From Planctomycetaceae bacterium (GTDB taxonomy: Bacteria > Planctomycetota > Planctomycetia > Planctomycetales > Planctomycetaceae), in assembly GCA_021732995.1 (NCBI GenBank), contig JAKFWA010000084.1, positions 62,001-126,000 of the forward strand: a stretch of 64,000 bases of DNA. Reading direction: 5' to 3'. Within the stretch, counting starts at the first letter, position 1; every line of letters starts with the position of its first letter. The notes below the pieces were generated by a model that saw nothing but the letters and a program-made list of their open reading frames with translations, searched no databases and was not told the origin of the DNA. Both the position numbers and the translations under genes were made by a program. Of this stretch, positions 1,896-28,504 are shown in pieces.

Positions 1896-3122
1896 ATGTC
1901 TACGACGACCACCACAGGTGCCGCGACCAGTCAGGTTCCGGACGATTTGGGCCGCTTTGGCGAATTCGGACGCCGATTTGTCCCCGAAACGCTGATGCAC
2001 GCCCTCGAAGAACTGACGGCTGAATACGCGCGAGCCACCCAGGATCCGGCGTTTCAAAAGGAGCTGGACGGCCTGCTGTCGACGTTCGTCGGGCGTCCGA
2101 ATCCGCTCTATTTCGCTGAGCGACTGACGCAATACTGTGGTGGCGCAAGGATTTACCTCAAGCGTGAGGACCTGAATCACACCGGCGCCCACAAGATCAA
2201 CAACACCATGGGGCAGGTGTTGCTGACGCGCCGCATGGGCAAGAAGCGCGTGATCGCCGAAACCGGAGCCGGTCAGCACGGAGTCGCCACGGCCACCGCC
2301 TGTGCCCGATTCGGACTCGACTGCGTCGTTTATATGGGTGAAGAAGACGTCCGCCGCCAGAAGCTCAACGTCTTTAATATGAGAATGATGGGCGCCGAAG
2401 TGCGGCCCGTGACCAGCGGCTCGCGAACCTTGCGTGATGCAATTAACGAAGCCATGCGCGACTGGATGGGTTCGGTTCAGAACACACACTACATCATCGG
2501 GTCCGTCGTCGGACCGCACCCCTTCCCGATGATGGTTCGCGACTTCCAGTCTGTCATTGGCCGCGAAGCTCGCCGCCAGTGCCAGGAAATCGTCGGACGC
2601 CTGCCGGATGAAGTGATTGCGTGCGTCGGCGGTGGTTCAAACTCGGCGGGCATGTTTTACCCCTTCGTGGATGACAAGACTGTCCGTCTGACGGGAGTGG
2701 AAGCTGGCGGTCGAGGCCCGCAACCCGGAGATCACGCCAGCACCTTGACTCACGGCGTAAAGGGCGTACTGCACGGCAGTTACAGCTACGTTCTGCAGGA
2801 CGTAGACGGCCAGACTGCGGACGTCCATTCGATTTCCGCCGGACTGGACTATCCGGGCGTCGGCCCTGAACACAGCTACTGGAAGGATTCCGGCCGGGTG
2901 GATTACGTCAGCATCACCGACCAGGAAGCTCTCGACGCGTTCCAGACGATGGCGAAGCTCGAAGGCATTCTGCCGGCATTGGAAAGCTCACATGCCATCG
3001 CCCATACCTTGAAAGCCGCCAAACGTCGCTCGCCGCAGGAAGTCATCGTGGTGTGCCTGTCGGGGCGAGGTGATAAAGATGTCTACGAAGTGGCCCGGTT
3101 GCTCGGTCGCGACCTCGGTTAG
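1896..3122 (+). CDS. trpB: Tryptophan synthase beta chain
   Basis: PLP enzyme joining indole and serine to make tryptophan; works as an alpha2beta2 complex with TrpA. 408 residues, a normal length. The PLP-binding lysine is K100 in HTGAHKINN, and the phosphate-binding loop [10 protein letters not shown] is at about 245-254. The N-terminal [15 protein letters not shown] is typical of TrpB. ATG at 1896 is preferred because AGAAAG lies about 6 bases upstream; an in-frame GTG at 1863 would add 11 residues with no TrpB similarity. trpA follows after a gap of about 65 bases in the same direction, so the two are probably one operon. No other trp gene is visible. Confidence 0.97.
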
Positions 3123-3188
3123 CAGCGCCTTTGCCATCCACTTACGACCTTGAATGCCATCGAGCGTCCATCACTTATCGGAGCCACC

Positions 3189-24744: not shown

Positions 24745-27700
24745 CTAAGGCAGTTCCCAAAGCTGCAGCATCTTATTGTAACCGCACGTCAGCACCAACT
24801 TACCGTCCGCCGACAGCGCCACGTTCTGAGCCGTCAGCGTGTCGACCTGCCAGGAATCGATGACCTCGCCCTTACCCACGTCCCATACCACCACGTTCTT
24901 GTTGTTCGCGGCATCGGCGATGGCAACTCGGTTGCCATTCTCAGAGAAAGCGAACCCGCTGCCGGAGGAATGTGAGCGAAAATTCAACGTGGAGCCATCG
25001 CCCGGCTTTTCCAGATACGCCAGGAAGAGACTTTGGTGACTCTTGTCGAACAGCACTTTGCCAGACGCCCCACTGATCCGCGCTCCCCTGTAGTTTGACC
25101 CCTCGCCCGCTGAGGCAGTCCGAATCTGAGTCCCGGTTTCGGGATTCCACCAATCCACCGAACGACCATCCGTCGAGATCAGTTCTTTTCCGTCTACCGA
25201 GATCGCCAACGCCTGGATGAAGGCGCCCTGGTTGTGACGCCAGTCCTTGAGTTTCTTCTTCTCCGCTACGTCCCAGACTTCCATCTGCCGCGATAGGAAA
25301 CTGAAGTAGACGCGGCCACTGTCCTTCGAAAACACCATCGCATTCGGCTTGATGGCCATCTCGGGCTTCAGCAGCGATTCCCGGGTCTCGGCATTCCAGA
25401 TGTTGAGACCGGTATGGCTCGACACTCCCAGCAACTTGCTGTCCGGTGAAAAGGCGACGGCCTGAACACCAATCCCCACCGCGTCGAACTTGCCGATCGG
25501 GTCCTTCTGAGTGACATCATAGACTTGAACGGTACCGTCCTGACCAACCGCAATCGCCTGCTTGTTGTCGGGACGCAGGTAGATCGCATGCACCAGTGCG
25601 GACGAGACCGGCGCGAACCGCTGGACGAGTTTCGCAACTTTCGGAGCCTGCAGCTTGGCCAGTTCTTCCGCCGCCTTCTGAGCCTGTGAGGCTTGCAGCT
25701 CGGCCATTCGTTCAGCGGCAGCCTTCTTCTCGGCCTCAATAACCTTGGGGTCCGTGTAGTTGATCCGCACTTCAAAGGGCAGTTTGACGCTGATCGCACC
25801 ATCGTTGCGGGCGAGTTCAAACTTCAACAACGCTGAAACCGGCTTGTGGTCTTTGGTGTCGAACTTCCATTCGCCGCCGCCTTTCACGGCCAGGTACGGC
25901 TTCTCTTCGCTGTCCGTCGTATGCAGATCGTAAGACTTCTTGATGTGGCGGTACTCAGCGTCCAGTTCGCCGAGTGTGTAAGTGACCTGCTCGTGAGCCG
26001 GAATCACTTTGACGTTTTGCGGACGTCGATCAAAGAAGCGATTGATGCCCGGCGGACGCATGCGGGCAAACGGATCGTTCGGGTCCTGTTCAATCCGACT
26101 GATGCTGGTGTCCTGACTGGAACCCCATGTGCCCTGACCACTCGAATTCACGGGCACGATGGCCAGCAGCGCGGCCGGTCCCATGACGAACGGCAACTGC
26201 TCTTCGCCCTTGAAATTGACGACGTCACCGAACTCGTCGATCGTCAGCGTCCCCTTGCCGAATTCGGTCCTCGGCACGGAAAAACGCATGCTGGGAAAAC
26301 GCCCAACGTTCGGTCGATTGCTGCTGGAGAAAGAGGCGTCATATTCGAGCGTCGTGCGGTTCTCACCAGCGCCCATCCGCACTCGCACGAAGCCCAACGA
26401 GGGACCAAGTTTCGCTGCCAGCGCTGGACCATCAAGCTTCTGTTGTCCGACCGCAGCAGCCAGTTTGATGCCCGCCTTGTCGAGTAACGCCTTCGCGTCG
26501 CTGGAGGGGCGAGCAAACCCTACGGTGGAAACCGTGGGGCCGGTCAGCTTGGCGCTCGCGACGCCGATCACGTCGCCGAATTCGTTGACGACCGGGCCAC
26601 CGCTGTTACCCGGATTGATCGCTGCGTCGATCTGAAAAATGCGGCTGTCGCCTTGCTGATTCAATCCGGCAACGGTGCCAGTCGTGACCTTCAAGTTGTT
26701 GCCGAGTACATCAGACAACGGGAACCCCAGCACACGGACGGCCTGCGCCAACTGCACACTGCTGGAATCCGCCAGCGCGATCGGCGTGAGGTTCTGCGCG
26801 GCGATCTTGATGATCGCGACGTCATGCGGTGCGTCCGAAGCAATCACGGTTGCGGCGTACTTCTTGTCGCCGAGTTGCACTTCAATGTTCTTGGCGCGGT
26901 CGATGACGTGCGCGCACGTGACGAGATAACCGTCGGCGGAAACAACAAACGCCGAGCCGGTACCCTCCTGACGCGATTCAATGCTGATCGCCGGTGGCTG
27001 CTTCGAGATGCGATAGATCACGGTGCCTTCCGTGCGTTCCGTCGAATCCCCCATGTTGGCTTCAATGGAAAACTTGTAGGGGTAGTCTCGATTCGGCTCG
27101 AACTTGTAGCGCAGCGTGTTGGCAACATCGGCCACGATGATCGGAGCCGGTGCCGGGTTCACTGGCGCGGGAACAACTGGAGCAGGCGGGTTGACCGGGG
27201 GCAGCACCGGAGCAGGCTGCGCCGGCACAACGGGCACCGGAGTTACGGTCGGCCCCTCAGTCCCAGCAGGTTTATTTGGTTCAGGATTCGTCGCTGGCTG
27301 ACTGGGGGGAGGTTGATTCCGCGCCAGTTGATTCGGCGCAGGATTGACGGCGGGCGCTGGAGCCGCCTGGTTCTGAGCAATGGGCGCCGTATTCGTAGTC
27401 GCATCAGCGGGCTGGTTCACAACCGGCGGGTCGTTCTGCGCGACCTGCTGATCTTGCGGGTTGAAGAAACTGATCAGGAAGAACACCGCCGCAACCACCG
27501 CGACGAGGCCACCACCCAGAATGATGCCGACCAGCATGCCGCCCGATGAACCGGACTCTTCGTCATGATGATGTTCTGCGCGCGGCAGGGGAGTCGCCCG
27601 TGGAGCCTTGCGCGGCTGGTACTCTTCAGTGACTTCCAGCACTTCGTCTTGCGCATCGTCGTCGCGCGAATTCCGTGCGGACGGACGCAGTCGCGATTCC

Positions 27701-27816
27701 GGCGACTCACCTATGCGGATGGTCTCACCACAGTTCGGGCAGTCGAAGGTCTTTTTCGACGTATCGTCCTTGAGCCGGTAACGGGTCTCACAAGCGGGGC
27801 AGCTCACGATAGGCAT
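24745..27816 (-). CDS. Zinc-ribbon / TM / trypsin-like protease / WD40 fusion protein
   Basis: 1023 residues in a single frame. Residues 1-35 form an MJ0042-type zinc ribbon (C6, C9, C26, C29), presumably cytoplasmic. A transmembrane helix at about 94-118 is followed by a Pro/Ala/Asn-rich spacer (120-228). A trypsin-like (DegP/HtrA-type) domain spans about 270-450 with the full triad: H303 (VTCAHV), D332 (APHDVAIIK) and S405 (INPGNSGGPV). No PDZ domain is seen. A charged helical segment (about 690-730, KAAAERMAELQASQAQKA) leads to C-terminal WD40-like repeats, such as QAIAVGQDGTVQVYDV and ADGKLVLTCGYNKMLQLWEL. Probably an inner-membrane protein with its protease and propeller outside. Substrate unknown. 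Confidence 0.9.
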   Translation of the reverse strand: MPIVSCPACETRYRLKDDTSKKTFDCPNCGETIRIGESPESRLRPSARNSRDDDAQDEVLEVTEEYQPRKAPRATPLPRAEHHHDEESGSSGGMLVGIILGGGLVAVVAAVFFLISFFNPQDQQVAQNDPPVVNQPADATTNTAPIAQNQAAPAPAVNPAPNQLARNQPPPSQPATNPEPNKPAGTEGPTVTPVPVVPAQPAPVLPPVNPPAPVVPAPVNPAPAPIIVADVANTLRYKFEPNRDYPYKFSIEANMGDSTERTEGTVIYRISKQPPAISIESRQEGTGSAFVVSADGYLVTCAHVIDRAKNIEVQLGDKKYAATVIASDAPHDVAIIKIAAQNLTPIALADSSSVQLAQAVRVLGFPLSDVLGNNLKVTTGTVAGLNQQGDSRIFQIDAAINPGNSGGPVVNEFGDVIGVASAKLTGPTVSTVGFARPSSDAKALLDKAGIKLAAAVGQQKLDGPALAAKLGPSLGFVRVRMGAGENRTTLEYDASFSSSNRPNVGRFPSMRFSVPRTEFGKGTLTIDEFGDVVNFKGEEQLPFVMGPAALLAIVPVNSSGQGTWGSSQDTSISRIEQDPNDPFARMRPPGINRFFDRRPQNVKVIPAHEQVTYTLGELDAEYRHIKKSYDLHTTDSEEKPYLAVKGGGEWKFDTKDHKPVSALLKFELARNDGAISVKLPFEVRINYTDPKVIEAEKKAAAERMAELQASQAQKAAEELAKLQAPKVAKLVQRFAPVSSALVHAIYLRPDNKQAIAVGQDGTVQVYDVTQKDPIGKFDAVGIGVQAVAFSPDSKLLGVSSHTGLNIWNAETRESLLKPEMAIKPNAMVFSKDSGRVYFSFLSRQMEVWDVAEKKKLKDWRHNQGAFIQALAISVDGKELISTDGRSVDWWNPETGTQIRTASAGEGSNYRGARISGASGKVLFDKSHQSLFLAYLEKPGDGSTLNFRSHSSGSGFAFSENGNRVAIADAANNKNVVVWDVGKGEVIDSWQVDTLTAQNVALSADGKLVLTCGYNKMLQLWELP

Positions 27817-28504
27817 GGCGTGGTTCTCTCACTGACAAACAACGCATCGGGCGCGAGACCTGAGTGGCTTAACGTGCGTGCCAATACATCAGCAAGTATC
27901 AGACGCAGGTCATGCGGAAAGTTCTTCACCAAAAACTTCCCAAACGCAAACTCAGTGTGTCTTGACCTGATTCGAGGCATGGGCGAGCATTCGACGTGTC
28001 AGCCGTGAGTCAATTCTGGCAAAGCTCGCTTTGTCAGGCTGATTTGCAGCAGTTTTCGGTATTTTCTGCCGAAACATGTCTGTCACACGGTTGGCTCGTT
28101 TTCCTTTTGACGATCATGCCTCTCAGAATCAATCCAACGGAGGGACCTAAACCATCTGATGGGCCCCGATGATCAAACGGCGAGTGCTTAAGCACTGCTG
28201 CATCGCGCCCGTCTTCAAGAGACTCTGCCTGTTGCTTTGCGAGAGAGGCTTGATGTGTAGAAACCGCAGGTTCTTCGGAACCTGCGGTTTTGTTTTTGTG
28301 GAACAACAACTTTTTGGAACAACAACTGGCGGAAAACATTTCCGCTGAGGCTTGCCGCCTGCCTGATTGTTGCCCGCCAGTGTCGAGAGCCGAGTTCCCT
28401 GAGTCTGGCAACACTCCCGCTGTCGCGGCTTGTCAGGTTCGATCAACCACTTCTAAGATCGACTTCACCGAAGACAACAACCGTCATCGAATGAGAGCAG
28501 CAAC
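27817..28504. other. Large gene-free region with an internal terminator
   Basis: 688 bases between divergent genes without a believable protein gene. It contains small dyads at 28018-28036 (GGCAAAGC/GCTTTG-C) and 28052-28074 (TTTCGG/CCGAAA), a palindromic AGTGCTTAAGCACT near 28183, then a strong terminator at 28261-28297. Right after the terminator a 13-base direct repeat (TGGAACAACAACT) occurs at 28299-28311 and 28315-28327. The terminator with no upstream reading frame suggests a short untranslated transcript (see findings). Confidence 0.6.
28261..28297 (+). terminator. Intrinsic terminator with UUCG tetraloop
   Basis: A 13-base perfect stem (28261-28273 with 28278-28290) capped by the extra-stable C(TTCG)G tetraloop and followed by TGTTTTTG on the plus strand. 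It is the clearest factor-independent terminator in the window. It is more than 400 bases beyond the start of the leftward fusion-protein gene and about 205 bases before the GNAT start, so it does not close any annotated protein gene. Confidence 0.9.

Follow-up and report, generated by a model that had tools for sequence, protein, structure and literature searches.

A conserved, single-copy structured RNA with its own terminator, probably an undescribed small RNA family of planctomycetes

Results

Sequence features of a gene-free region

The window (the whole 64,000-nucleotide stretch of planctomycete DNA that was analysed) includes a region, positions 27817 to 28504, that shows no gene: none of the four open reading frames tested there matched a Pfam family, in agreement with a preliminary description of the region as gene-free. 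On one side lies a minus-strand gene (24745-27816) whose protein carries a zinc ribbon at the N terminus, a trypsin-like protease domain, and a WD40-type propeller at the C terminus, and on the other a plus-strand gene encoding a GNAT protein. Inspection of the sequence confirmed a perfect 13-bp stem with a C(TTCG)G loop, AAACCGCAGGTTC(TTCG)GAACCTGCGGTTT, at 28261-28290, with a T-rich tail behind it. A G.U pair closes the stem and extends it to 28260-28291, and the site (28260-28296, 14 pairs) was ranked first by a terminator pattern scan. Terminator-like sites as a class were not significant (7 seen versus 4.9 expected); significance rests on this particular stem and its conservation.

Two smaller dyads that had been noted upstream of the stem are both real. 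The first (28183-28196, AGTGCTTAAGCACT) is the apical tip of the conserved arm (P3) of the RNA delineated below, while the second (28052-28074) lies upstream of that RNA. A 13-base direct repeat, TGGAACAACAACT, is also present as reported, at 28299 and 28315 (28299-28327), just 3' of the terminator and outside the conserved RNA; no role was found for it.

Comparison with related genomes delimits a predicted small RNA gene of approximately 184 nt (28113-28296), which includes its own terminator. The element from 28116 to 28297 folds with a free energy of -74.2 kcal/mol (z = -5.4). Features of the locus are as follows, with the evidence for each.

28067..28073, plus strand: TGCCGAA, a degenerate copy (one mismatch) of the upstream element TGCCGAT, based on enrichment of TGCCGAT in relatives
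28113..28254, plus strand: structured RNA core, closing stem to closing stem, 142 nt; one match each in 207 of 397 genomes of the class, and covariation in 76 sequences
28113..28124, plus strand: 5' strand of closing stem P1, ATCATGCCTCTC, with one T.T mismatch; 11 modelled pairs, all changed on both sides, 91.5% of cells paired
28134..28153, plus strand: near-invariant, largely unpaired motif on the 5' side of the internal loop, CCaaCGGAGGgaCCtaaACC (consensus CCGNCGGAGGNNCCAA); column conservation in 76 sequences
28157..28217, plus strand: apical arm P3, comprising TGA/TCA, GGGC/GCCC, CGATG/CATCG, GGC/GCT and AGTGC/GCACT; helices 2-5, 91.5-96.9% of cells paired
28217..28237, plus strand: hairpin P4, degenerate in the window, consensus AGCGAC-UCCACC-GUCGCA; 93.7% of cells paired, near-invariant sequence
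28243..28254, plus strand: 3' strand of closing stem P1, GAGAGGCTTGAT; covariation in 76 sequences
28260..28296, plus strand: intrinsic terminator with a 13-bp perfect stem, UUCG loop and T-run; sequence and terminator scan, with 12 of 12 modelled pairs covarying in relatives

Distribution of the RNA among planctomycetes

Searching 150 genomes of the window's family at the DNA level returned one match besides the window itself, with 74% identity over 179 bases, in a genome of another genus (G007) where the flanking genes were different. The match spanned almost exactly the interval from closing stem to T-run. Both sequences fold into a closing stem, an apical arm and a terminator (each z = -5.4), and many of the differences between them preserve pairs. 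A covariance model built from these two sequences (R1) matched once per genome in 88 of the 170 genomes examined from the window's family. With a second model based on 25 aligned sequences (R2), the RNA was detected in 130 of those 170 genomes and in 207 of 397 genomes of the class, spanning at least 15 families, at exactly one copy per genome in every listed case. In a sample of 392 genomes from the phylum, all 36 matches fell within the class. A third model (R3), used for 6S-bearing families and outside the class, yielded nothing convincing in class families f2, f3, f4, f6 and f8 or beyond the class; we regard the short or weak matches in a few genomes of those groups (best E 8.6e-4 over 59 bases) as chance.

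The exact conserved pattern was found on contigs labelled Planctomycetaceae, Schlesneria, Pirellula, Pirellulales and Planctomycetia, and the RNA is present in Thermogutta terrifontis (genome G158), where it lies at 2927739-2927934, although numbering in the public record may be offset. Metagenome bins at six loci carrying it (L144, L153, L157, L159, L162 and L164) are labelled Kuenenia stuttgartiensis or Planctomyces sp. SH-PL62, labels that may be wrong.

The covariance-model search against Rfam that had been suggested for the region was run, and no family of Rfam 15 reached its gathering score anywhere in the window or for 18 relatives; around the stem, no lenient match for the window rose above chance. 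Our literature search, which covered mostly non-subscription sources, found no published description of such an RNA, and an earlier description elsewhere is possible.

Covariation supports a conserved fold

In an alignment of 76 diverse sequences, which was fitted to the model and thereby leans the counts towards structure, standard pairs occupied 93.9% of 3220 cells and both sides had changed at 42 of the 43 pairs. The covariation score was 0.794, versus 0.237 when shuffled and 0.10-0.14 with partners slid, and there were 910 double-change cells (239 in shuffles). Sliding partners by 1-3 columns reduced pairing to just 38-47%. The same helices were recovered in structure-naive alignments. Conservation of the stem in relatives, on which the preliminary description had staked its reading in advance, was borne out: almost all sampled copies end in a terminator, and its pairs covary. 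A chance terminator, or a decayed repeat without function, would fit a terminator scan that as such is near background, but this explanation is refuted by the covariation and by the presence of a single conserved copy in 15 or more families, which leave it with virtually no probability.

Within the fold, a closing stem of 11-12 bp (P1) bounds a large internal loop that holds CCGNCGGAGGNNCCAA in its 5' part and the hairpin P4 (GCGAC-UCCACC-GUCGC) in its 3' part, both of them near invariant. P4 showed 4 double changes versus 0.6 in shuffles, and is kept, judged by eye, by paired changes (GCAGU/ACUGC in L121, GCGGC/GCCGC in L099 and L100). This local hairpin was put in place of a stem termed P2 (CAACGG/CUGUUG), which folding of the window had suggested and which paired changes had preserved in the initial two-sequence comparison; in wider sets, one of its pairs was broken in 11 of 29 and in 11 of 25 sequences. 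The GGAG and CUCC segments are able to pair in nearly all species, and are changed on both sides in L087. A pseudoknot between them is possible, but cognate pairs had no significant advantage over permutations (p = 0.08 and 0.18). One Planctopirus-like copy (G073, genome positions 3488643-3488802; L165 at about 3004-3156) is without a separate terminator hairpin, its closing stem running straight into the T-run.

Genomic context and upstream elements

The preliminary description had left two options, a small RNA or premature termination within the leader of the GNAT gene. The RNA does lie upstream of that gene on the same strand, with its terminator approximately 210 nt before the start codon, as a regulated leader would. 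However, in no other fetched locus, including that of the other genome of the same genus, was the RNA adjoined by the GNAT gene or by the protease gene that precedes it here. Flanking genes changed from genus to genus, any one neighbouring gene was shared by at most 7 of the 76 loci, and the RNA did not keep to a fixed place ahead of a particular gene or class of genes, as a cis-acting leader or riboswitch would. Because neighbouring genes are not conserved and GNAT adjoins no other copy, the RNA is not a GNAT leader. That role is highly improbable and can be considered refuted for the family. The small-RNA option stood, given occurrence in at least 15 families, a single copy per genome, covariation and, almost always, a dedicated terminator, while the leader option fell for want of gene linkage.

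Comparative genomics strongly supports the plus-strand non-coding transcript that had been proposed, and the RNA gene is probably transcribed. Upstream of the RNA, TGCCGAT occurred within 160 nt on the sense strand at 41 of 76 loci (2.0 expected), and at 3 on the opposite strand. Its distance to the RNA is variable (mostly 17-112 nt), and the remaining intergenic DNA at these loci showed no enrichment of it. The sigma-70-like hexamers TACAAT and TAGAAT were enriched upstream on the sense strand as well; the window's own copy has no recognisable promoter. TGCCGAT resembles the FliA -10 element (GCCGATAA), and a FliA/WhiG factor scored above the cut-off in 37 of 40 genomes. A sigma-28 promoter was not adopted, as GCCGAT was found in 2 of the 18 flagellin upstream regions checked, and sigma-70-like -10 hexamers are enriched too.

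Relationship to 6S RNA

The covarying stems P1 and P3, placed around a conserved loop, reproduce a 6S-type architecture (closing stem, central internal loop and apical arm), and the two RNAs have a near-exclusive taxonomic distribution outside the window's family: the new RNA alone was found in 66 genomes, 6S alone in 110, and both in 6, most of which had weak 6S scores. Both observations could be expected of a diverged 6S RNA homologous to RF00013. Nevertheless, RF00013 gave no match for the window even at E values up to 10, nor at the gathering threshold for the 18 relatives. Moreover, within the window's family both RNAs occur, at different places, in at least 53 genomes, and the 6S matches in those genomes have canonical 6S ends and sequence. 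The new RNA is therefore not 6S: we rejected a 6S orthologue on the lack of an RF00013 match and on these separate loci, and consider orthology largely refuted and homology improbable. In the window's family, most genomes that have 6S also have the new RNA, although counts of genomes with only one of them are inexact here as the two samples used for co-occurrence overlap without being identical. The window's own genome had no 6S match at E 0.001.

By family, RF00013 was nearly absent from f5, f7, f11 and f15, which have only the new RNA, and was common in families without it (f2, f3, f4 and f8). Exclusivity follows family lines, and therefore reflects few events (few clades) rather than many independent ones. 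A previous study did not find 6S RNA in T. terrifontis, where the new RNA is present, and refers to reports that Pirellula staleyi and Rhodopirellula baltica lack 6S as well (PMC5673643). The near-exclusive distribution suggests some functional overlap with 6S RNA; a 6S-like role deduced from near mutual exclusivity by family is a lead only.

Discussion

We conclude that the locus very likely contains an independent, trans-acting, structured RNA gene, a confidence that attaches to the gene itself rather than to any specific mode of action. It probably represents an undescribed, housekeeping-type family of small RNAs that act in trans and are absent from Rfam 15. Such an RNA would work in trans rather than as a leader belonging to an adjacent gene, and may dock a protein or larger complex through its conserved internal loop. 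A single copy retained in many families, with sequence-fixed loop strands held in a freely covarying frame, points to docking of a conserved partner.

Among specific modes, global regulation through binding to RNA polymerase, in the manner of 6S RNA, appears the most likely, albeit tentatively. Ranked second is pairing of the GGAGG and CUCCACC strands with mRNAs or rRNA, a possible mode of the proposed RNA gene rather than a competitor to it. As a putative trans-acting small RNA, it could pair its CUCCACC loop or GGAGG strand with ribosome-binding sites or the 3' end of 16S rRNA, and its G-rich and C-rich strands, which are unpaired and near invariant, look like a Shine-Dalgarno sequence and the complement of one. 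However, those strands can also pair with one another, and single-copy conservation across many families is more usual for housekeeping RNAs; we consider this pairing role possible. Some other ribonucleoprotein role is a further, slightly less likely candidate. More speculatively still, the RNA might be a planctomycete-specific global regulator of the transcription or translation machinery that replaces 6S RNA in lineages that lost it (Pirellulales-type families). If true, one housekeeping RNA would have been replaced by an unrelated one.

Structured RNAs that much of a bacterial class carries in a single copy per genome usually have housekeeping functions, and few are left to find. Planctomycetes are odd in their cell biology, and their regulatory RNAs are almost unstudied. 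The new family offers a concrete single-copy target, the expression and importance of which could be shown by existing data sets, namely strand-specific RNA-seq of T. terrifontis (PMC5673643) and a transposon library of Planctopirus limnophila, saturated to one insertion per 11 bp (PMC10632474).

Comparison with known RNAs

The Rhodopirellula-1 motif of Weinberg et al. (2010, PMC2864571) is likewise a candidate RNA, tabulated there under Proteobacteria and Planctomycetes. This listed range extends beyond that of the new RNA, which was found here in a single planctomycete class. Csr/Rsm-type sponge RNAs (CsrB, RsmY) share a conserved unpaired GGA motif with the new RNA. Nonetheless, the latter has only one or two GGA, situated in the internal loop rather than in repeated hairpin loops, and most of its conservation lies elsewhere; the several GGA in hairpin loops typical of CsrB/RsmZ-type RNAs were not present. 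A further likeness is to 6S RNA (RF00013, SsrS), which is also a single-copy RNA of approximately 180 nt with a closing stem, a large internal loop, an apical arm and its own gene. In contrast to 6S RNA, to which it has no covariance-model match and from which its conserved sequences differ, the new RNA has a shorter core (142 nt) and a fixed-sequence hairpin in its 3' strand, and the two occur in the same genomes at different places.
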